A DNA stretch of 9,718 bases from Candidatus Latescibacterota bacterium (GTDB lineage: Bacteria > JAAXHH01 > JACQVL01): assembly GCA_016209865.1 (NCBI GenBank), contig JACQVL010000256.1, positions 1-9,718 of the forward strand. The letters are read 5' to 3'. The translations under genes were made by a program, and so were the position numbers. The stretch's first letter is position 1; every line of letters begins with the position of its first letter. The notes under the pieces were generated by a model. The model ran no database searches, had not been told where the DNA came from, and was given only the letters and a program-made list of their open reading frames with translations. Shown here piece after piece: positions 1,925 through 9,443 of this stretch.

Positions 1925-1959
1925 CGGTGATCGGTGGTCAGTAGTCGGTGGTCGGTTCA
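1925..1959 (+). repeat. Heptad repeat, CGGTGGT family (single arm)
   Basis: Five consecutive 7-base units at 1925, 1932, 1939, 1946 and 1953, variants of CGGTGGT (CGGTGAT, CGGTGGT, CAGTAGT, CGGTGGT, CGGTTCA). The array begins two bases after the dnaK stop codon and fills half of the dnaK-dnaJ gap. I see no complementary arm before dnaJ, unlike the other heptad loci in this window. Confidence 0.75.
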
Positions 1960-1990
1960 CGTCAATTGGGAAGGATGAAGACCGCGTCTT

Positions 1991-3148
1991 ATGGCCAAAC
2001 GTGACTACTACGAGGTGCTCGGGCTCGATCGCAACGCCTCTCCGGAGGAGATCAAGAAGGCGTACCGCCAGATGGCGCTCAAATACCATCCGGACCGGAA
2101 CCCTGATGATAAAGACGCGGAGGACAAATTCAAGGAGGCGGCGGAAGCGTATGAAGTGCTGAGTGACGCTGACAAGCGGGTCCGGTACGACCGGTATGGC
2201 CATCAGGGGGTCACGAGTGATTTTGGCGCGGGCGGGTTCCAGTGGACGCACTTCTCCCACATGGGCGATTTCGACGATATCCTGGGCAGTTTCTTCGGCC
2301 GGTCGGGCACGATCTTCGGCGACCTGTTCGGGACGGCCCGGACGGGACGGCGTGCCGGGCCTCAGCGGGGCTCCGACCTGCAAGTGAAAGTTCAGTTGAC
2401 CCTCGAAGAGATCGCGAAGGGGCTTCAGAGGACGATCTCGTTGAAACGGCTCGAGGGCTGCGAGACCTGCCACGGGAGCGGGGCCAAGCCGGGGAGCGGA
2501 CAGAAGACCTGCCCGGTCTGCCGGGGGACGGGGGAAGTGCGACAGGTGTCTCAGTCGTTCTTCGGGTCGGTCATCAACGTCGCCGTCTGCGCGCAGTGCC
2601 GTGGCGAGGGGAAGGTCATCGAGCAACCGTGTCCCACGTGCCGGGGAGAAGGGCGCGTTCAGAAGTCGGTCACCCTGAACGTCCGGATCCCGGCCGGAGT
2701 GTCGTCGGGGAACTACATCCCGCTCCGGGAGCAAGGCAACGTGGGGCCGCGTGGCGGCCCGCCCGGCGATGTGATCGTGTTGATCGAGGAGGAAGAGCAT
2801 CCGCATTTCGACCGTCACGGGAACGATATCGTCTATGAACTCCCCATCAGCTTCAGTCAGGCGGCGCTGGGGGATGCCATGGAAGTGCCGACGCTCACCG
2901 GGAAGGTGAAGCTCCACATCCCGCCGGGCACGCAACCCGGCAAGGTGTTTCGGATGCGGGGAAAAGGCATCCCGCACCTGAACGGGTACGGGAACGGCGA
3001 CCAGCTTGTCAAAGTGATCGTCTGGACGCCGACGAACCTCGGCGAGCGGGAGAAGAAGCTGTTTCGAGAACTGGCGACCTTGGAAGGCGGCAAGGCCCCG
3101 GCAGCGGATAAGAGCTTCTTTGAACGGCTGAAGGAGGCATTGGGGTGA
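1991..3148 (+). CDS. dnaJ: Co-chaperone DnaJ (Hsp40, type I)
   Basis: Partner of DnaK: delivers unfolded clients and stimulates its ATPase. 385 residues, normal for type I DnaJ. The J domain (about 4-70) has the essential HPD motif at residues 33-35 within [11 protein letters not shown] Gly/Phe region follows (about 74-120), relatively poor in glycine but with the usual [11 protein letters not shown] stretch. The zinc-binding domain has all four CxxCxGxG repeats, starting at Cys157, Cys174, Cys200 and Cys214 ([32 protein letters not shown]). The C-terminal client-binding domains include [15 protein letters not shown]. The start [11 protein letters not shown] is the canonical family start. A purine tract GGGAAGGA (1968-1975) is 15 bases upstream, farther than usual, so the ribosome binding site is weak or unusually spaced. 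Most likely co-expressed with dnaK. Confidence 0.98.
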
Positions 3149-3152
3149 TTCG

Positions 3153-3271
3153 ATTTTGGATTTTAGATTTTGGATTCATCAAGGAATGGATACCCGCAGT
3201 GTTCGATGATTCGTCTTTAGTATTTGATGATTCGTCTTTCAATCCAAAATCCAAAATCTAAAATCCAAAAT
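3153..3271 (+). repeat. Spaced inverted heptad repeat, ATTTTGG family (dnaJ-prmA)
   Basis: Two perfectly complementary 24-base arms, 3153-3176 and 3248-3271, separated by 71 bases. The left arm is three 7-base units (ATTTTGG, ATTTTAG, ATTTTGG) plus ATT; the right arm is its exact reverse complement, with one extra AATCCAA-type unit on its inner side. The left arm starts five bases after the dnaJ stop codon and the right arm ends directly at the prmA ATG. The same 24-base arm recurs at 9343-9366 and 9419-9442. The element is AT-rich in a high-GC setting. The transcript could form a long stem. Confidence 0.92.
3205..3239 (+). repeat. 14-base direct repeat in the loop of the dnaJ-prmA element
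   Basis: GATGATTCGTCTTT occurs at 3205-3218 and again at 3226-3239, offset by 21 bases, which is three 7-base units. The block reads as heptads GATGATT, CGTCTTT, AGTATTT, GATGATT, CGTCTTT. It is thus a second, unrelated heptad family nested inside the ATTTTGG inverted pair. Confidence 0.85.
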
Positions 3272-4177
3272 ATGTCTGACTGGGTTGAGATTCAAGTCGC
3301 GGTGACCTCCGGCACGGAAGAGGCGGTGTCGAACCTGCTATGCGAGCTGGGGAGTAATGGAGTCGTCCTCGTCGATGGTGAACATGGTACGGGATCATCG
3401 GTCGCTGGCTATATCCCGGCTGGAGAACGCATCCATGACAAGGTGCGGCGTATCCGGGAGTTGTGGGATGGGTTATGCGGACTCGGCCTGGCGGACGGCG
3501 ACTGCCAGATCGCCATCCGGCATCTTCCGGCGAGCGATTGGGCGACCGAATGGCAGGGCCGGTTTGTCCCCATTCAGGTGTCCGACCGGCTGATCGTGAA
3601 GCCCCCATGGGCGACGGTGTCCGGCCGTGCGGATCAGGTTGTCATCGACATCCTGCCGGGGATGGCGTTCGGGACGGGTGAGCACGAGACGACGCAGTTG
3701 TGTCTGCGGGCGCTCGATCGGACGATCCGGCCCGGCGATCGGGTGCTGGACGTCGGCACGGGGTCGGGGGTGCTGGCGATCGCGGCGGCCAGGCTGGGCG
3801 CGGGAGAGGTCACCGCGGTCGACACCGATGACGTGGCGGTGGAGAACGCCCGGTCGAATATCGTCCGCAACCGGATGAGCGACCGTGTCCACGTGGCTTG
3901 CGGGAGCCTCGACCATCCGAGTGTGAGAGGGTCGTACCGGGTGATCCTCTCGAACCTCGACACGCGCACGATTCTCCGGCTCTCAGCGGCCTGGCCCTCC
4001 CGGCTCGACCCGGACGGGACGCTCATCCTGTCGGGGGTGTTGAGCACAGAGGGGGAGGAAGTCGTCCAGAGCCTCCGGGCGCAGGGTCTCGACGTCATCC
4101 AGCAGGCGACGATGGGGGAATGGTGGAGCGGGGCGATGAGAAAGAGTGAAGAGTTAAAAGTGAAGAGTGAAGAGTGA
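3272..4177 (+). CDS. prmA: Ribosomal protein L11 methyltransferase PrmA
   Basis: SAM-dependent methyltransferase that trimethylates ribosomal protein bL11. The N-terminal L11-recognition domain (MSDWVEIQVAVTSGTEEAVSN) leads into the family signature FGTGEHETT (133-141). SAM-binding motif I is DVGTGSG (160-166), an acidic residue follows at the next strand (TAVDTDD), and SNLD (227-230) occupies the motif IV position. I chose ATG 3272 (301 residues) because upstream in-frame TTG/ATG codons at 3224/3227 would encode repeat sequence ([16 protein letters not shown]). No Shine-Dalgarno is visible: the A-rich repeat arm abuts the ATG. The last 11 residues, KSEELKVKSEE, and the stop codon are encoded by an AGAGTGA heptad array, so the native C-terminus has probably been replaced or extended. 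The position after dnaJ and before rsmE matches a conserved gene order. Confidence 0.94.
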   Translation: MSDWVEIQVAVTSGTEEAVSNLLCELGSNGVVLVDGEHGTGSSVAGYIPAGERIHDKVRRIRELWDGLCGLGLADGDCQIAIRHLPASDWATEWQGRFVPIQVSDRLIVKPPWATVSGRADQVVIDILPGMAFGTGEHETTQLCLRALDRTIRPGDRVLDVGTGSGVLAIAAARLGAGEVTAVDTDDVAVENARSNIVRNRMSDRVHVACGSLDHPSVRGSYRVILSNLDTRTILRLSAAWPSRLDPDGTLILSGVLSTEGEEVVQSLRAQGLDVIQQATMGEWWSGAMRKSEELKVKSEE

Positions 4178-4241
4178 AAACCTATAATCATCACTTCATA
4201 ATCCGTTGCTCTTTAACTCTTCACTCTTCATTCTTCACTGA
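4142..4241 (+). repeat. Spaced inverted heptad repeat, AGAGTGA family (prmA-rsmE)
   Basis: The left arm is five 7-base units starting at 4143, 4150, 4157, 4164 and 4171, variants of AGAGTGA; the last contains the prmA TGA stop. The right arm (4214-4241) is four complementary units of the TCACTCT type. A perfect 17-base complement links 4142-4158 with 4212-4228; the remaining units pair imperfectly. The unit at 4235-4241 supplies an in-frame TGA (4239-4241) just before the rsmE ATG at 4245. Confidence 0.9.
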
Positions 4242-4244
4242 TTT

Positions 4245-4982
4245 ATGAACGGGTATTGTTACGTGCCCCCCGAGGCCATCGTCGACGATCGGGCGGTCCT
4301 GACGGATGGGGAGGAGTACCGGCATCTGGTCCGGGTGCTCCGGAAACGGCCCGGCGACCGAGTGACGTTCGTGGACGGCACGGGATGGGTCTACGACGGC
4401 GAGATCGAACAGGTCGGCCCGGCCGCGGTAGGGTTACGGGTGACGCGCCGGCGTGATGAGACGGAGCCGGACGTGCGGGTGACGCTCGCTCCGGCGCTGC
4501 TCAAGGGCAACCGGCTGGATTTCGTCATCGAGAAAGCGACGGAGATCGGGGTCGACGGGATCGTCCCGATGCGCACAGCCCGGACGATCGTCGAGCAGGA
4601 CGCGGCGTCCGGCGAAGCCCGTCGCGCCCGGTGGCAGCGGCTCGCCCTGAGCGCGATGAAACAGTCGTTGCGGTCCTGGCTGCCCCCTGTTGCTCCGGTG
4701 GCCGAGTTCTCGGAGGTGATCGCCCGCGCGAGCGCGTACGACCTGGCGGTGATCGCCTGGGAAGGGGAGACGCTCGATGGCATCCCGGCCGCGCTGGCCG
4801 ACCGGCCGCGTCCCCGGCGGGTGCTCGTCCTCGTCGGCCCGGAAGGGGGGTTTGACCGGACGGAGGTCGACGCGGCCCGTCACGCGCAGGTGTCTCCGGT
4901 GTCCTTAGGGGCGCGGCGTTTGAGGGCGGACACCGCCAGCCTCGTCGCGTTGACCGTCCTGATGACCGCGCTGGAGGCTTGA
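4245..4982 (+). CDS. rsmE: 16S rRNA (uracil1498-N3)-methyltransferase RsmE
   Basis: SPOUT-class enzyme that methylates N3 of U1498 of 16S rRNA in the 30S subunit, using SAM. 245 residues, as expected. An N-terminal PUA-like domain contains the EYRHLVRVLRKRPGD stretch. The SPOUT core shows KGNRLDFVIEKATEIGVDGIVPM, then AMKQSLRSWLP. The knot has GPEGGF (198-203) and LRADTA (226-231). Most family members have Glu in LRxETA; here it is Asp229, a conservative change. The start is fixed by an in-frame TGA at 4239-4241, with ATG 4245 the first start after it. No Shine-Dalgarno is visible, the upstream sequence being the pyrimidine-rich repeat arm. The stop at 4980-4982 is one base before the next start. 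Confidence 0.95.
   Translation: MNGYCYVPPEAIVDDRAVLTDGEEYRHLVRVLRKRPGDRVTFVDGTGWVYDGEIEQVGPAAVGLRVTRRRDETEPDVRVTLAPALLKGNRLDFVIEKATEIGVDGIVPMRTARTIVEQDAASGEARRARWQRLALSAMKQSLRSWLPPVAPVAEFSEVIARASAYDLAVIAWEGETLDGIPAALADRPRPRRVLVLVGPEGGFDRTEVDAARHAQVSPVSLGARRLRADTASLVALTVLMTALEA
4973..4977 (+). promoter_or_regulatory. Ribosome binding site for the HIT gene, inside rsmE
   Basis: GGAGG near the 3' end of rsmE, six bases before GTG 4984. It fixes the GTG as the start and, with the one-base gap between genes, supports translational coupling. Confidence 0.75.
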
Positions 4983-4983
4983 C

Positions 4984-5328
4984 GTGGCTGATTGCATTTT
5001 CTGTAAGATCATCGACGGGGAGATCTCGGCGTCCATCGTGTATTCCGACGACCGGGTCGTCGCGTTCAACGACGTCAACCCGCAGGCGCCGGTGCATGTG
5101 ATCATCGTCCCGCGCCAGCATATCCCGACGGTGGCCGACCTGGGGCCGGAGACGTCAGGTCTGATGGACAGCCTGACGCAGACGGCCAATCGGATCGCTC
5201 AGGAGCGCGGGATCGCGTCACGTGGTTACCGGCTGGTCGTCAACTGCAACGCCGAAGCGGGACAATCAGTCTACCATCTGCATCTCCATCTCTTGGGCGG
5301 CCGCCCGATGACCTGGCCGCCGGGATAA
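4984..5328 (+). CDS. HIT-domain protein (HINT/PKCI-like)
   Basis: Histidine-triad hydrolase of the HINT branch, a family that hydrolyses purine nucleoside phosphoramidates or AMP-lysine adducts; the physiological substrate in bacteria is poorly defined. 114 residues, normal length. The N-terminus CIFCKIIDGEI carries a CxxC pair (Cys4, Cys7), part of a zinc site in some members. The catalytic triad motif HLHLHLL has His98, His100 and His102, preceded by NAEAGQSVY and followed by GGRPMTWPPG, the HINT-type ending. Start is GTG 4984 with GGAGG six bases upstream inside rsmE. It lies one base after the rsmE stop, the only junction here besides cvpA-mutS2 without a gap. The symbol hinT would fit but orthology is not proven. 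Confidence 0.93.
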   Translation: MADCIFCKIIDGEISASIVYSDDRVVAFNDVNPQAPVHVIIVPRQHIPTVADLGPETSGLMDSLTQTANRIAQERGIASRGYRLVVNCNAEAGQSVYHLHLHLLGGRPMTWPPG

Positions 5329-5334
5329 AAGGGC

Positions 5335-5457
5335 AAGGATGAAGGGGTAAGGACGAAGGACGAAAAGAGCAAGGACAAAGGGGGCAGGATGAAACGGCTC
5401 TCTTCTGTCATTCCCGCGCAAGCGGGAATCCATTTCGTCCTTCATACTTCGTCCTTG
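5335..5457 (+). repeat. Spaced inverted heptad repeat, AAGGACG family (HIT-rpsU)
   Basis: The left side (5335 to about 5394) has 7-base units at 5335, 5342, 5349, 5356 and 5371, variants of AAGGACG, with two one-base phase slips. The right arm (5433-5457) has TTCGTCC, TTCATAC and TTCGTCC. The longest perfect complement I find is 11 bases, 5355-5365 with 5433-5443, plus CAAGGAC 5370-5376 with GTCCTTG 5451-5457. The most degenerate of the paired loci. The loop contains a separate hairpin at 5410-5429. Confidence 0.82.
5410..5429 (+). repeat. dRS3-like inverted repeat hairpin
   Basis: Perfect 8-base stem ATTCCCGC / GCGGGAAT around loop GCAA, a GNRA tetraloop if transcribed. It matches the core form of the neisserial dRS3 repeat and of similar dispersed small repeats in many other bacteria. 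It sits in the loop of the AAGGACG heptad pair, three bases before the right arm. No T-run follows, so it is not a typical intrinsic terminator. Confidence 0.8.
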
Positions 5458-5476
5458 AATTTATACGAGAGGGGGT

Positions 5477-5481
5477 GGGAG
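5477..5481 (+). promoter_or_regulatory. Ribosome binding site of rpsU
   Basis: GGGAG five bases before ATG 5487, at the end of a purine tract from about 5467 (GAGAGGGGGTGGGAG). It is the strongest-looking site in the window and selects ATG 5487 over the in-frame GTG at 5475. Confidence 0.7.
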
Positions 5482-5486
5482 TAAAC

Positions 5487-5684
5487 ATGCCAGGCATTCG
5501 AGTGAAGGAAGGAGAGCCGTTTGAGAAGGCGCTCCGTCGGTTCACCAAGACCTGCGAGAAGGCAGGGATCATGTCAGAAATCCGGAAACACCAGCATTTT
5601 GAGAAGCCGAGTGCGCGGCGCAAGCGCAAATTGAACGCCGCGAAACGGAAAAACCAGAAACGGATGCAGCAGTTTCAGAGTTAG
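5487..5684 (+). CDS. rpsU: 30S ribosomal protein bS21
   Basis: Small basic protein of the 30S platform near the anti-Shine-Dalgarno end of 16S rRNA, important for initiation. 65 residues, within the family range. It opens with [27 protein letters not shown], the conserved bS21 N-terminal half, and ends in a Lys/Arg-rich helix ([18 protein letters not shown]). ATG 5487 fits the family N-terminus and has a good ribosome binding site; the upstream in-frame GTG 5475 would add MGVN from the binding site itself. The TAG stop (5682-5684) shares its last two bases with the first unit of an AGTGAAG heptad array. yqeY follows, a pairing seen in many bacteria, often as the beginning of an rpsU-dnaG-rpoD region; dnaG and rpoD are not in this window. 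Confidence 0.96.
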
Positions 5685-5775
5685 TGAAGAGTGAAGAATG
5701 AAGAGTGACGAGTAAAAAACATCGTGCTGTTGAATACGGTAATCGGTTTGCACTCATCACTCATCACTCTTCACT
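5683..5775 (+). repeat. Spaced inverted heptad repeat, AGTGAAG family (rpsU-yqeY)
   Basis: Left arm: 7-base units at 5683, 5690, 5697 and 5704 (variants of AGTGAAG), beginning within the rpsU stop codon. Right arm: CACTCAT at 5751 and 5758, CACTCTT at 5765, then CACT. Perfect complement of 12 bases between 5683-5694 and 5764-5775. This is the same family, in another phase, as the prmA-rsmE element. The loop is about 40 bases of unremarkable sequence. Confidence 0.88.
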
Positions 5776-5782
5776 GCTCCTC

Positions 5783-5787
5783 AGGAG
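5783..5787 (+). promoter_or_regulatory. Ribosome binding site of yqeY
   Basis: AGGAG six bases before GTG 5794. The spacing supports the GTG start. An out-of-frame ATG at 5792 overlaps it and would give no conserved protein. Confidence 0.65.
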
Positions 5788-5793
5788 CCAGAT

Positions 5794-6243
5794 GTGTCGC
5801 TCAAAGACCGGCTGATGGCTGACGGGAACGCGGCCTTAAAAAGCGGGGATCGAGTCCGGCTCACCGTCATCCGGATGGTCCGGGCTCAGATGAAGAACGC
5901 GGAGATCGCGAAGGGCCGGGACCTGACGGAGCCGGAGATGGTCGATGTCCTGGTGTCGGCCGCAAAAGCCCGTCGTGAGGCGCTCGCGTACTTCACCCAG
6001 GGACAGCGCGACGACCTGGTTCACGAGGAAGAACAGGCACTGCGGGTCATCGAGGACTACCTGCCGCAGCCGTTGTCTGAAGCGGAACTCCGGACGCTGA
6101 TCGACGCCACGATCCACGAGGTCGGGGCGGCCGGACCGAAAGATATGGGGCGCGTGATGAGCGTGCTGATGCCGCAAGTCAAAGGCCGGGCTGAGGGGAA
6201 GCTGGTCAATGAGCTGGTCATGAGGACGTTGAAGGAGTCGTAG
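5794..6243 (+). CDS. yqeY: GatB/YqeY domain-containing protein
   Basis: 149-residue stand-alone member of the GatB/YqeY family. The domain resembles the tRNA-interacting C-terminal part of the GatB subunit of Asp/Glu-tRNA amidotransferase, but the role of the free-standing protein is not established. Recognisable segments are LKDRLMADGNAALKSGD near the start, the central ARREALAYFTQGQRDDL, EEEQALRVIEDYLPQPLSEAEL (the conserved YLP block), and GPKDMGRVMSVLMPQVKGRAEGKLVNELV at the end. The start is GTG 5794, chosen because it gives the family N-terminus and has AGGAG at the right distance. Its TAG stop lies inside a 28-base palindrome. Directly downstream of rpsU, as in Bacillus and many others. 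Confidence 0.93.
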   Translation: MSLKDRLMADGNAALKSGDRVRLTVIRMVRAQMKNAEIAKGRDLTEPEMVDVLVSAAKARREALAYFTQGQRDDLVHEEEQALRVIEDYLPQPLSEAELRTLIDATIHEVGAAGPKDMGRVMSVLMPQVKGRAEGKLVNELVMRTLKES

Positions 6244-6267
6244 GGACGCGGCATGCCGCGCCCCTAC
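6240..6267 (+). repeat. 28-base palindrome over the yqeY stop codon
   Basis: Two 14-base halves, 6240-6253 and 6254-6267, are reverse complements except for one mismatch (A6246 against C6261). The outer ends are GTAGGG and CCCTAC and the centre is GCATGC. The yqeY TAG (6241-6243) lies in the left half. No T-run follows, so it looks like a REP-type dispersed palindrome more than an intrinsic terminator; the hairpin could still stall transcription or protect the mRNA 3' end. Confidence 0.85.
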
Positions 6268-6281
6268 ACGACGGCGGCGTG

Positions 6282-6923
6282 ATGAACTGGGTCGATGTCG
6301 GCATTATCGCGCTGATCCTCTATCAGGCGGCCATCGGGTTCCGGGCCGGAGTCCTGAGAGGGGTGCTCGACCTCGGCGGGCTGCTGACGGCGGTGGTCAT
6401 CGCCACGACGCAGGTCCGGTGGGGGGGAGAGATCATCCAGGACCTCATCTCCGCGTCCCCTCCGGTCGCACGCTGGCTGAGTTTTCTGCTCGGTCTCGGA
6501 CTCTTGACGCTCATCTTCCGGGGAATGATCAGCCTGCTGAGCCGGCTGATCCGGCAGCCGCGCCGGACGTGGTCAGACCGGATCGGCGGCACCGTTCTCG
6601 GCAGTCTGCGGGGGGGAATGACCGCGAGTCTCCTGCTGGTGCTGTTTACCCTGATGCCTCTCCCGGCCGGCCTCGCCACCCAGATCGATCAGTCGCCCTT
6701 AGCGCCGTCGACGCTCGACATCGTGCCATCGTTGTATGATTTTCTCGCCGCTCATGTCCTGCCTCGGGCACGGCCGTTTTACGAACAGCTCGATATGCAT
6801 CGTCCTGCTTCTTCGACGACGACCGTCGATCCGATTGACCTGACCGCCCAACGCCGTTCATTCGCACGCGTATCAGCACATTTCGTCCTTCGTCCTTTGC
6901 CCTTCGTCCTTAGAGATTTTTAG
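6282..6923 (+). CDS. cvpA: CvpA family inner-membrane protein
   Basis: Small membrane protein of the CvpA family, named for its role in colicin V export in E. coli; its function elsewhere is largely unknown. Four hydrophobic segments are visible at about residues 5-22, 25-43, 62-84 and 102-124. The N-terminus MNWVDVGIIALILYQAAIGFRAG is typical (Asp5, then a Gly-rich second helix LDLGGLL), and IGGTVLGSLRGG is the conserved block before the last helix. ATG 6282 is chosen; GTG 6279 immediately before would add one residue. No clear ribosome binding site. The last 13 residues (FVLRPLPFVLRDF) are encoded by a TTCGTCC heptad array, so the terminus is probably acquired. The stop codon abuts the mutS2 ATG with no gap. 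cvpA next to mutS2 is a common arrangement. Confidence 0.88.
   Translation: MNWVDVGIIALILYQAAIGFRAGVLRGVLDLGGLLTAVVIATTQVRWGGEIIQDLISASPPVARWLSFLLGLGLLTLIFRGMISLLSRLIRQPRRTWSDRIGGTVLGSLRGGMTASLLLVLFTLMPLPAGLATQIDQSPLAPSTLDIVPSLYDFLAAHVLPRARPFYEQLDMHRPASSTTTVDPIDLTAQRRSFARVSAHFVLRPLPFVLRDF
6882..6911 (+). repeat. Heptad repeat, TTCGTCC family (within the cvpA 3' end)
   Basis: Four 7-base units at 6882, 6889, 6896 and 6903 (TTCGTCC, TTCGTCC, TTTGCCC, TTCGTCC) plus TT. They are read in frame as the C-terminal tail of CvpA and end 12 bases before the mutS2 ATG. The unit is the complement of the AAGGACG family and matches the right arm of the HIT-rpsU element. No left arm is present upstream. Confidence 0.85.
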
Positions 6924-9332
6924 ATGGACCGCCCGAGTCCGTCTCCTCACATCGATCCCCATACCCTCCGGGTGCTGGAATTCCCGGTCATCTGCCAGAT
7001 GCTGGCGGACCGGGCGACGTCTGCCCTCGGCCGCGAGCGGGCGCTCGCCCTGACGCCAGGGACTGACCTGGCGGGGATCGATGAACGGCTCCGCACTGTA
7101 TCGGAATTCCGCACCATCCTGCAGGCCAACGACACCGTCCCCATCCGGGGGATCAAAGACATCCGGCCCGCCCTCGCGCAGGCCCGCATCGAGGGGACGG
7201 CGCTCGACCCCGCCACTCTCTTAGACGTCGCCTCGACGCTCCAGACGAGCCGGCTGCTCCGGGCGTTCGGGTCTCAGCTCCACGAGAAGCTCCCCTCGCC
7301 TCGCGTCGAGCGGCTCCTGGCCGGGTTAGGGACGTTCCCCGGCATCGAGGAGGCGGTGTCACAGGCGATCGACCCGTCCGGCGTCGTCAAAGACCAGGCG
7401 AGCAGTACGCTGCGCCGCATCCGGCGGGAACAGCAGACCATCCGGGAGCGCACCCGCGAGCATCTGACCGGCCTCGTCCAGTCGGATACCGGCCGCCAGG
7501 CGCTCCAGGAGCCGGTGGTCACCGTCCGCGAGGGCCGGTACGTCGTCCCGGTCCGGATCGAACACCGGAACCGCATCCGCGGGGTGGTGCACGACCAGTC
7601 GGCGAGTGGGGCGACGCTGTTCGTCGAGCCGTTCGCCGTCGTCGAGCTGAACAACCGGCTCCGGGAACTGGAGATCGAAGAGCGGCGGGAAATCGACCGG
7701 ATTCTCTCGGCGATCACCACGCTCATCCGTCAGGAGATCGAACAGATCGTGGAGACGGTCATGGGGCTCCAGCAGGTCGATTTTTTCTACGCCGCTGGCC
7801 GGTTCTCCCTCGACCTCCGGGCGGGCCGGCCCCGGCTGAATCAAGACGGCCAGATCGACCTCCGGAACGCCCGCCATCCGCTACTCGAATGTTCCCTCGA
7901 CCCGGCCCAGCCGCTACGGAAGGCCGTCCCGCTCACCCTCCGGGTCGGCGGGTCCGCTTCGACGCTCGTCATCACCGGGCCGAACATGGGGGGGAAGACG
8001 GTGGCGCTGAAGACGGTCGGACTGCTCACGCTGATGGCCCAGTCCGGCCTCCACGTGCCCGCCGATGAGCCGGCGGACCTGGCGGTGTTCACGCAGGTCT
8101 TCGCCGACATCGGGGATGAACAGTCGATCCAGCAGAACCTCAGCACGTTTTCCTCTCACTTGCAGCAGGTCATCACCATCCTGAATCAGGCGGACGCCCG
8201 CACCCTCGTCCTGTTAGACGAGCTGGGCGCGGGGACGGACCCGACCGCCGGGGCGGCCTTAGGGATGGCCGTGCTGGAGTCGCTCACCGGCCGGCGGGCG
8301 GTGACGATCGCCACGACGCACTACGGCGCGCTCAAGGAGTTCGCCGCCCGGACGCCCGGCGTCGAGAACGGGTCGATGGAGTTCGACGTGACCACGTTAA
8401 GCCCGACGTACCGGTTCCGGCAGGGGATTCCGGGCGGAAGCTATGCGGTGGAGATCGGCCGGCGGCTCGGCCTTCCCGATGTGATCCTCGACCGGACGAT
8501 CGCCGTCATCGGGAGCGACGAGCGCCGGCTCGAAGAGCTGATCGTGGCGCTCGACCGGGAGCGCCGTCTCCACGAAGAGGCGCGGGAGCAGGCGGAACGG
8601 CTGCGCGAGGAACTCGACCGCCTGACGAAAGACTACCGGGACAAACTCGATACGCTGACACGCACCGAGCGAGACTTCCTCCGCAAAGCGCAGGAGCGGG
8701 CGGACCGGGTGTTGCGGGACGCAAACACGCTGGTCGAGCGGACGGTGGCGGACATCCGGGCGCAGCAGGCGTCGCGGGAAGCGATCAAGCAGGCCAAGAC
8801 GGCCCTGCACGAGCAGCGCGCCCAGGTGCGCCAGCAGCTCGACGAGACGCGTCCCGCCCCTGCACCGGAGCCGGCCCGGTCGCTCCAGGTCGGGGACGAA
8901 GTCTGGGTGGAGAGCCTGCGGGCGAACGGGGTGATCGTCGAGGCGTCCGACGGCCGGCTCCGGGTGCGGGTGGGCAAGGTGGAGATCACCGTCCGCCGTG
9001 AGGACGTGCGTGCGCCGGCTCTGTCCGAGGCAGAGGAGCCGGTTCCGGAGCGGCGGGCCGGCGGGGTGCGGGTGCACACCCCGACGCGCGTCAACCCGGA
9101 GCTCGACCTGCGCGGATACACGGCCGACGAGGCGATCGAGGCGGTCGACCGCTACCTCTACGATGCCTCGATGGCGGGGCTGTCGAGTGTGTGGATCATC
9201 CATGGGAAAGGGTCGGGCGTGCTGCGGCAGGAGATCGGGAAATTCCTGAAGGCGCATGACCTGGTTAAGAGCTACCGGTTGGCGGAGTGGAATGAGGGGG
9301 GGAGCGGGGTGACGGTGGTGGAGCTGGGGTGA
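6924..9332 (+). CDS. mutS2: MutS2 (Smr-domain MutS family ATPase/endonuclease)
   Basis: MutS-related ATPase lacking the mismatch-recognition domain. Family roles reported are suppression of homologous recombination and, in Bacillus subtilis, rescue of collided ribosomes. 802 residues, normal length. In order: N-terminal LRVLEFPVICQML typical of MutS2, core and lever helices, Walker A GPNMGGKT (352-359), signature STFSSHLQQV, Walker B LVLLDELGAGTDP with Asp432/Glu433, the ATTHYGALKEFA switch, a long charged coiled coil (about 530-645), a KOW-like segment starting near 653 (SLQVGDEVWVESL), and a C-terminal Smr domain with LDLRG (727-731) and HGKGSGVLR (from His760). All nuclease and ATPase motifs look intact. 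The start is ATG 6924, touching the cvpA stop; no Shine-Dalgarno is seen, so coupling to cvpA is plausible. With the L11 and rRNA methylases and bS21 nearby, the ribosome role fits the neighbourhood. Confidence 0.97.
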   Translation: MDRPSPSPHIDPHTLRVLEFPVICQMLADRATSALGRERALALTPGTDLAGIDERLRTVSEFRTILQANDTVPIRGIKDIRPALAQARIEGTALDPATLLDVASTLQTSRLLRAFGSQLHEKLPSPRVERLLAGLGTFPGIEEAVSQAIDPSGVVKDQASSTLRRIRREQQTIRERTREHLTGLVQSDTGRQALQEPVVTVREGRYVVPVRIEHRNRIRGVVHDQSASGATLFVEPFAVVELNNRLRELEIEERREIDRILSAITTLIRQEIEQIVETVMGLQQVDFFYAAGRFSLDLRAGRPRLNQDGQIDLRNARHPLLECSLDPAQPLRKAVPLTLRVGGSASTLVITGPNMGGKTVALKTVGLLTLMAQSGLHVPADEPADLAVFTQVFADIGDEQSIQQNLSTFSSHLQQVITILNQADARTLVLLDELGAGTDPTAGAALGMAVLESLTGRRAVTIATTHYGALKEFAARTPGVENGSMEFDVTTLSPTYRFRQGIPGGSYAVEIGRRLGLPDVILDRTIAVIGSDERRLEELIVALDRERRLHEEAREQAERLREELDRLTKDYRDKLDTLTRTERDFLRKAQERADRVLRDANTLVERTVADIRAQQASREAIKQAKTALHEQRAQVRQQLDETRPAPAPEPARSLQVGDEVWVESLRANGVIVEASDGRLRVRVGKVEITVRREDVRAPALSEAEEPVPERRAGGVRVHTPTRVNPELDLRGYTADEAIEAVDRYLYDASMAGLSSVWIIHGKGSGVLRQEIGKFLKAHDLVKSYRLAEWNEGGSGVTVVELG

Positions 9333-9341
9333 AGAATTTTG

Positions 9342-9443
9342 GATTTTGGATTTTAGATTTTGGATTGAAGAACCACTGAGGGGGAGCCACTGATCGCGGT
9401 TACTCGCCGTTAATCCAAAATCCAAAATCTAAAATCCAAAATC
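9342..9443 (+). repeat. Spaced inverted heptad repeat, ATTTTGG family (mutS2-kinase)
   Basis: Perfectly complementary 25-base arms at 9342-9366 and 9419-9443 around a 52-base loop. The left arm is preceded by one further ATTTTGG unit (from 9336), and the right arm has an extra unit on its inner side. The 24 bases 9343-9366 are identical to 3153-3176 of the dnaJ-prmA element, but the loops differ completely. The left arm starts within ten bases of the mutS2 stop and the right arm ends where the kinase ribosome binding site begins. Confidence 0.93.
9373..9393 (+). repeat. CCACTGA direct repeat in the loop of the mutS2-kinase element
   Basis: CCACTGA at 9373-9379 and 9387-9393, exactly 14 bases (two heptads) apart. 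Short and could be chance, but it keeps the 7-base spacing seen elsewhere. Confidence 0.45.

Follow-up and report, generated by a model that had tools for sequence, protein, structure and literature searches.

Heptad arrays at the gene junctions of a Latescibacterota contig

The 9,718-nucleotide contig JACQVL010000256.1 of a Candidatus Latescibacterota bacterium (assembly GCA_016209865.1), referred to in full as the window, carries the genes dnaK, dnaJ, prmA, rsmE, HIT, rpsU, yqeY, cvpA, mutS2, and a Ser/Thr kinase gene, in that order. The names yqeY and cvpA rest on weak family matches together with the labels of the original prediction, a reading of the DNA that had reported degenerate tandem repeats of a 7-base unit (heptads) at seven of the nine gene junctions. 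Tandem arrays called with Tandem Repeats Finder (TRF) bear this out, with period-7 arrays at exactly those seven junctions and all of the predicted repeat families present; TRF detected no heptad arrays at the rsmE–HIT (1 bp) or yqeY–cvpA junctions of the window. At five of the seven junctions the arrays form an inverted pair, a feature absent from the original prediction. Below, each array is an arm, and the DNA enclosed by a pair is a spacer.

1925–1956, plus strand: single arm at dnaK–dnaJ, family GGTGGTC (TRF); the G-rich strand leads away from the dnaK stop.
3150–3177, plus strand: dnaJ–prmA 5′ arm, GATTTTGGATTTTAGATTTTGGATT (TRF 3152–3176); begins 2–4 nt past the dnaJ stop.
3178–3240, no strand: dnaJ–prmA hairpin spacer; occurs once in the genome.
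3241–3271, minus strand: dnaJ–prmA 3′ arm, inverted ATTTTGG family (TRF); runs up to the prmA ATG (3272).
4142–4178, plus strand: prmA–rsmE 5′ arm, family AGTGAAG (TRF); doubles as code for the last PrmA residues.
4212–4240, minus strand: prmA–rsmE 3′ arm (TCACTCT; TRF 4216–4239); precedes the rsmE ATG at 4245.
5334–5381, plus strand: HIT–rpsU 5′ arm, AAGGACG family, degenerate (TRF 5323–5364, period 14/7).
5410–5429, no strand: palindrome resembling repetitive extragenic palindromic (REP) sequences, ATTCCCGC-gcaa-GCGGGAAT (ATTCCCGCGCAAGCGGGAAT), in the HIT–rpsU spacer between the AAGGACG arms.
5433–5457, minus strand: HIT–rpsU 3′ arm (TTCGTCCTTCATACTTCGTCCTTG), from the sequence and the hairpin fold.
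5682–5714, plus strand: rpsU–yqeY 5′ arm, family AGTGAAG (TRF 5683–5713); overlaps the rpsU stop.
5749–5776, minus strand: rpsU–yqeY 3′ arm (TRF 5751–5775).
6882–6911, minus strand: single arm at cvpA–mutS2, AAGGACG family (TRF); C-rich on the sense strand ahead of mutS2 (6924) and contained in the cvpA frame, at its 3′ end.
9336–9366, plus strand: mutS2–kinase 5′ arm, ATTTTGG family, 31 nt (TRF); 3 nt past the mutS2 stop.
9367–9411, no strand: mutS2–kinase spacer, 45 nt, with an 87% identical sibling elsewhere in the genome (L022:17726), as few spacers have.
9412–9443, minus strand: mutS2–kinase 3′ arm (TRF).

Folded as RNA, the five window pairs gave z scores of −5.3 to −7.0, and 0 of 200 shuffles folded equally well; the dnaJ–prmA hairpin reached −44.8 kcal/mol (z −6.6) and the mutS2–kinase hairpin −50.6 kcal/mol (z −7.0). 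Two arms enter reading frames, with the heptads at 4142–4177 supplying the PrmA C-terminal residues ..KSEELKVKSEE and those at 6882–6923 the CvpA C-terminal residues ..HFVLRPLPFVLRDF; as read from these C-termini, an arm can lengthen a protein or take the place of its original end. The dnaJ–prmA spacer holds a 21-bp tandem duplication (3 × 7) at 3198–3239, and the heptad-free yqeY–cvpA junction has an imperfect palindrome, GGGaCGCGGCATGCCGCGcCCC, at 6243–6264.

Period 7 dominates intergenic DNA genome-wide

The window corresponds to one contig (C219) in a draft assembly (G000) of 3.75 Mb, with 356 contigs and 83% completeness. We read 61 pieces of it, amounting to 0.72 Mb (19% of the genome), some of which were picked for carrying the ATTTTGG repeat; an unbiased sample of 0.39 Mb (L029–L068) was picked by contig number alone. 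Genes were called with a simple codon model, which reproduced the genes of the window. The array detection threshold lies at about three heptads, so that weaker arms escape and some arms scored as single may have degenerate partners.

In the unbiased sample, intergenic self-match was 0.295, 0.279, and 0.280 at lags 7, 14, and 21 and about 0.265 at most other lags, with the value at lag 3 (0.288) being a codon residue. Period 7 accounted for 56 of the 85 intergenic TRF arrays there, the next periods being much rarer except for multiples of 7, and a test matched to each period returned 106 arrays of period 7, eight of period 6, three of period 8, and one of period 9. Seven, with 14 and 21, is thus the sole enriched intergenic period genome-wide. 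An enrichment confined to lag 7 and spanning unrelated families was the check proposed beforehand with the original prediction, and it was observed both across this genome and in other genomes. Of 302 unbiased junctions, 65 (22%) carried an array, a share that rose to 31% (62 of 201) among those at least 20 bp long; the window, with seven of nine, is therefore richer than average.

Approximately 25–35 heptad families are present in the genome. The main families are AAAATCC, ACGAGTG, ACCACCG, AAGGACG, ACCCCTG, and AACCCCG, and the pattern AATCCAAAATCCAAAAT alone, with at most one mismatch, has 301 genome matches (reversed control, 0). The mean distance from a family to its nearest neighbor is 1.12, against 1.62 ± 0.12 for composition-matched shuffles, and families are typically separated by about one substitution. 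A universal motif across families was considered and set aside, as the excess over shuffled heptads is mostly G/C strand skew. A search of Rfam did not find a match.

Arms are discrete units of fixed length and phase

Each arm is a discrete, oriented block, 24 or 31 nt long, which comprises three to four heptads plus 3 nt and has start and end phases that are fixed within its family. Arm lengths peak at 24–25 and 30–33 nt, with a mode at 31. ATTTTGG arms end in ...GATT in 50 of 55 cases, AGTGACG arms start with AGTGACG in 44 of 54, and AAGGACG arms start with AAGGACG in 13 of 17 and end with CGAA in 14 of 17. Representative arms read ATTTTGG ATTTTAG ATTTTGG ATTTTGG ATT and AGTGACG AGTGACA AGTGACG AGT; one heptad per arm, typically the second, is often substituted. 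Arrays that end at a fixed rather than an arbitrary phase do not behave as simple slippage microsatellites. Seven unrelated families also share an A-rich inner flank, on paired and single arms alike, with 44–74% A at positions 1–5 of paired arms against a background of 23%. As a universal trait the flank was rejected, being strong here and in the related genome G001, weak in cyanobacteria, and absent from a mixture of other phyla.

A four-unit mode and a G-rich strand are also what would be expected if these were G-quadruplex (G4) repeats, with four units present since four G tracts are required, as has been proposed for the Xanthomonas GGGAATC repeats; foldable families are indeed predicted here (GGGGTCA, GGGGTTC, and GGTGGTC). 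The AGTGACG and AGTGAAG families possess no GG runs, yet they show the same pairing and polarity, and AGTGACG keeps the 24- and 31-nt length modes. Because families without GG runs follow the same plan, G4 formation is not the general reason for it, and we regard it as highly improbable as a general explanation, though it may play a role in the foldable families.

The G-rich strand points inward from gene edges

The arrays are arranged with a consistent polarity. Among 62 neighboring array pairs, 53 are convergent, with the G-rich strand directed inward from both sides, none is divergent, and eight run in the same direction. Both sides belong to the same family in 81% of convergent pairs (random draws, 20%), and an inverted partner was found for 115 of 235 arrays, compared with 13 of 234 in controls with the arms moved elsewhere. 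Within 15 nt past a stop codon, in co-directional and convergent contexts, the sense strand of the arrays is G-rich by 92:4; within 60 nt before a start codon it is C-rich, by 49:7 between co-directional genes and 12:2 between divergent genes. Non-array DNA after stop codons is skewed only about 2:1, and single arrays alone retain a polarity of 53:6. Since co-directional, convergent, and divergent neighbors all obey it, the rule is one of orientation inward from the gene edge, not of the sense strand. The same observation rules out Rho avoidance as a general cause of the polarity. Gene-edge polarity recurs elsewhere, at 25:2 and 34:3 in two Sphaerospermopsis genomes, 62:4 in mixed cyanobacterial loci, and 12:1 in mixed loci of other phyla, the cyanobacterial and other-phylum loci having been retrieved via the ATTTTGG repeat.

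The 5′ arms adjoin the stop codon of the upstream gene, in most cases no more than 10 nt from it. The 3′ arms usually stop 5–20 nt short of the next start codon; some arms, such as those of prmA and cvpA, enter the coding end. Arm pairs enclose spacers of 20–145 nt. Only two sibling pairs with a common spacer were found among 26 ATTTTGG hairpins, so that the shared interior of a miniature inverted-repeat transposable element (MITE) is lacking. The REP-like ATTCCCGC..GCGGGAAT palindrome lies within 12 of 46 spacers, that of HIT–rpsU included. A related form of this palindrome has 26 matches in the 0.72 Mb read, often inside heptad pairs, though no Y1_Tnp gene was found in this 83% complete genome. 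One spacer between ATTTTGG arms (L009:4965–5061) contains TTGACT-17-TATACT, a sigma-70-like promoter.

G-strand 3′ ends that lead away from gene islands in every context are reminiscent of a telomerase-like templated end-addition, by which broken ends would gain heptads before being joined again, with filler DNA left between two G-strand arrays that face each other. Such a process would also fit the fixed end phase and quantized length, the same-family arms that vary independently, and the unrelated spacers. It would need many templates for 25 families, the families appear mutationally related, and single arms are common; moreover, we know of no such enzyme in bacteria. We hold it to be very improbable.

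Patchy distribution and turnover in other genomes

The phylum is small, with 16 available genomes, all from one order. The ATTTTGG pattern has no matches in the twelve genomes of one genus of that order, and the 95 kb sampled from one of the twelve (G006) contained none of any family. Heptad arrays are scarce in a second genus (G014), and a third (G001) has other heptad families plus octads that resemble a heptad with one base added (AATCACC to AAATCACC). Two G001 loci (L209 and L211) carry tandem octads, GATTTGGT, like the heptad GATTGGT with one additional T, beside heptad arrays of the shorter form.

Beyond the phylum, the exact 24-mer AATCCAAAATCTAAAATCCAAAAT is present, among the matches listed, in many cyanobacteria and in metagenome-assembled genomes (MAGs) of Chloroflexi, Acidobacteria, Armatimonadetes, Verrucomicrobia, Planctomycetes, and Deltaproteobacteria. 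Contigs from viral collections hold it in 14 stretches, and two cyanobacterial plasmids carry a 31-nt arm. Cyanobacterial and other-phylum loci that carry the 24-mer are rich in further heptad families; families other than ATTTTGG were shared between this genome and others no more often than chance would give (4 against 2.7 by chance, p 0.28). In one Chloroflexaceae MAG locus (L124), about 15 families make up 25 heptad arrays within 5 kb and alternate in one register (CGCAGTT/CGTTTCA).

Two Sphaerospermopsis genomes, approximately 96% identical and syntenic over 32 kb, allowed turnover to be followed. At one junction the family is swapped, with eight copies of GGGCATT in one genome and seven copies of GGTGACA plus a nested ATTTTGG hairpin in the other. 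Array lengths at junction 84607 differ by whole heptads, and at junction 88467, the sole such case, a hairpin is present in one genome and absent from the other, which can be read as a deletion through ATTTT. This empty site was considered as the trace of a mobilized heptad-armed element and rejected as such: the repeated interior proved to be a separate, ordinary MITE, carrying 8-bp duplications, which had inserted into the hairpin, and the site is explicable as a microhomology deletion. That MITE (L178:487–625) is about 139 bp long with 8-bp target duplications and exists in dozens of copies, some within heptad arrays. Several Sphaerospermopsis hairpins share a repeated 15-nt loop.

These comparisons bear on two alternatives. 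In the first, the arrays are ordinary heptanucleotide microsatellites produced by local polymerase slippage, with 7 favored by the polymerase contact length (a hypothesis that PMC4692102 attributes to Mrazek et al. 2007). The strong enrichment of period 7 only, the whole-heptad differences at junction 84607, and the stepwise mutation of heptads fit slippage, which would not predict the fixed start and end phase, the 31-nt mode, the same-family facing pairs, or a polarity independent of gene direction; heptad-derived octads further imply a step that is not bound to 7. We consider slippage an unlikely explanation.

In the second, the arrays are selected sites, either regulator-binding arrays or signals for hairpin RNA processing or punctuation kept after stops and before Shine–Dalgarno sequences. 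The placement of arms at stop codons (0 ± 10 nt), the 5–20 nt left before the next start, and the hairpin z scores of −5.3 to −7.0 would suit such a role, and four- and five-unit opposite-strand pairs in Geobacter have been interpreted as global regulator sites (PMC2700814). Set against this, about 25 families would call for many regulators, the polarity persists between convergent and divergent genes, ATTTTGG is missing from the twelve sister-genus genomes with the deeply sampled one devoid of heptad arrays, and sister species swap families at one site. Selection as the primary explanation is in our judgment rather unlikely; as a secondary role, it is compatible with the dispersed-element explanation developed below.

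Relation to known heptad repeats

The original prediction had likened the repeats to the short tandemly repeated repetitive (STRR) heptanucleotides of cyanobacteria, reportedly described by Mazel in 1990. The STRR sequences include CCCCAGT and CAACAGT, and STRR1–3 are not among the main families here. The likeness is fair in that tandem intergenic 7-mers occur here at many loci and in many families, with the ATTTTGG family identical in cyanobacteria and in this genome. The present host is non-cyanobacterial and its arms are short, fixed-ended, and mostly paired, unlike the often longer cyanobacterial arrays; the comparison was also too narrow, as the same anatomy is found in the non-cyanobacteria Xanthomonas (PMC4692102) and Geobacter (PMC2700814). 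Calothrix heptanucleotides are likewise cited in PMC4692102.

Among the GGGAATC and GGGGA(C/T)T heptamers of Xanthomonas and Nostoc, the Xanthomonas GGGAATC repeats are reported as four-unit arrays and convergent pairs with the same strand preference, and G-quadruplexes have been proposed for them (PMC4692102). Their counterparts here are the four-unit preference, with modes at 31 and 24 nt, and the convergent inverted pairs with the G-rich strand inward. One family per genome is described there, compared with about 25 here, several of which are unable to form G4; fixed ends and unrelated spacers were measured here, and AGTGACG and AGTGAAG have no G-quadruplex potential. In Geobacter metallireducens, tandem arrays of four or five units, each a heptad or an octad, are paired on opposite strands at variable distance and exist in many copies; the accessible part of that report describes few families, interpreted as global regulator binding sites, and contains no polarity or phase analysis (PMC2700814). 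The TAACTGA repeats of Beggiatoaceae, cyanobacteria, and Bacteroidetes are intergenic, patchy over phyla, and change in 7-nt indel steps, differing from the present arms in being one family, without inverted pairing, and mostly immediately before start codons (PMC4679880).

REPINs, hairpins built from REP sequences, are the best functional analogy, sharing conserved short arms, inverted pairs, a variable spacer, an extragenic location, and several families per genome (PMC3116915). Here the arms are heptad arrays rather than REP palindromes, the REP-associated tyrosine transposase (RAYT) was not found in this 83% complete genome, and single arms are no more decayed than paired ones, unlike decaying REP singlets; on the last two points, REPIN membership was rejected.

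A model for heptad arms

Taken as a whole, the repeats at the window junctions appear to belong to one genome-wide class of dispersed, oriented arms that spread by copying and share their period by descent, an explanation that we favor with about even confidence. The basic unit is an arm of set orientation, about 24 or 31 nt long, whose G-rich, C-poor strand points inward from a gene edge. Arms stand singly or, more typically, as a facing same-family pair around a 20–145 nt spacer, giving a long DNA or RNA hairpin. Arms or whole hairpins would be copied around the genome in the manner of REPINs or MITEs, as non-autonomous elements; heptads would be gained or lost within arms via slippage or recombination, and new families would arise from one another by point changes and then spread. 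The common 7-base period, arm length, and polarity would then be inherited. One diversifying arm lineage is the simplest account because the families are close and have length steps, ends, polarity, and flanks in common.

The shared mechanism proposed originally is thereby retained in part. Common origin is supported by the shared unit and arm length, ends, polarity, A-rich flanks, and families closer than shuffles; a mechanism for making 7-base units as such is not, given oriented units with fixed ends, which are not open-ended microsatellites, and the octads of G001. As those octads look derived from heptads, the period seems to follow the copied unit, and it is probably inherited within one dispersed-element lineage and not set by an enzyme fixed to 7 nt. 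A bolder variant, in which one machinery across several phyla adds or copies heptad arms at gene edges with fixed phase and length steps, the G strand leading away from genes as in telomere synthesis and ever new families appearing, strikes us as very unlikely.

Several observations weigh against spread by copying. No match to Y1_Tnp/RAYT (PF01797), and hence no candidate enzyme, was found in the 83% complete genome, nor was any heptad hairpin seen as a clean insertion accompanied by a target duplication. Conservation does not differ between single and paired arms, with 9–13% mismatch to the family consensus in both. Most spacers are unrelated, that of dnaJ–prmA being unique, which tells against whole-hairpin copying as the main route, and arms that share a hairpin resemble each other no more than random same-family arms do (19.2 versus 20.3 ± 0.5). 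The last comparison rules out concerted evolution of both arms via hairpin repair. With spacers unrelated and arms independent, the arm rather than the hairpin would be the main copied unit, and the spacer siblings and recurring loops suggest that hairpins are sometimes copied whole.

Implications for heptad repeats and their hosts

Much of this anatomy has been published piecemeal, for Xanthomonas GGGAATC, for Geobacter, and for cyanobacterial STRR; what is new is that many families, G4-incapable ones included, fall under one architecture and polarity rule. Heptads have so far been described as STRR, G-quadruplex repeats, regulator sites, or translational signals, family by family and lineage by lineage. 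The common arm length, ends, facing pairs, inward G strand, G4-incapable families, and multi-phylum polarity suggest that one kind of element lies behind those reports, and a concrete target follows in whatever copies a 31-nt heptad arm. The arms matter for annotation, as they overlap stop codons and alter protein C-termini. They also matter for operon expression, with strong hairpins or half-hairpins at 22% of the junctions of this genome; judging from its position right after stop codons, the strong hairpin RNA could plausibly act in the cell, for example through RNase III processing or operon punctuation.

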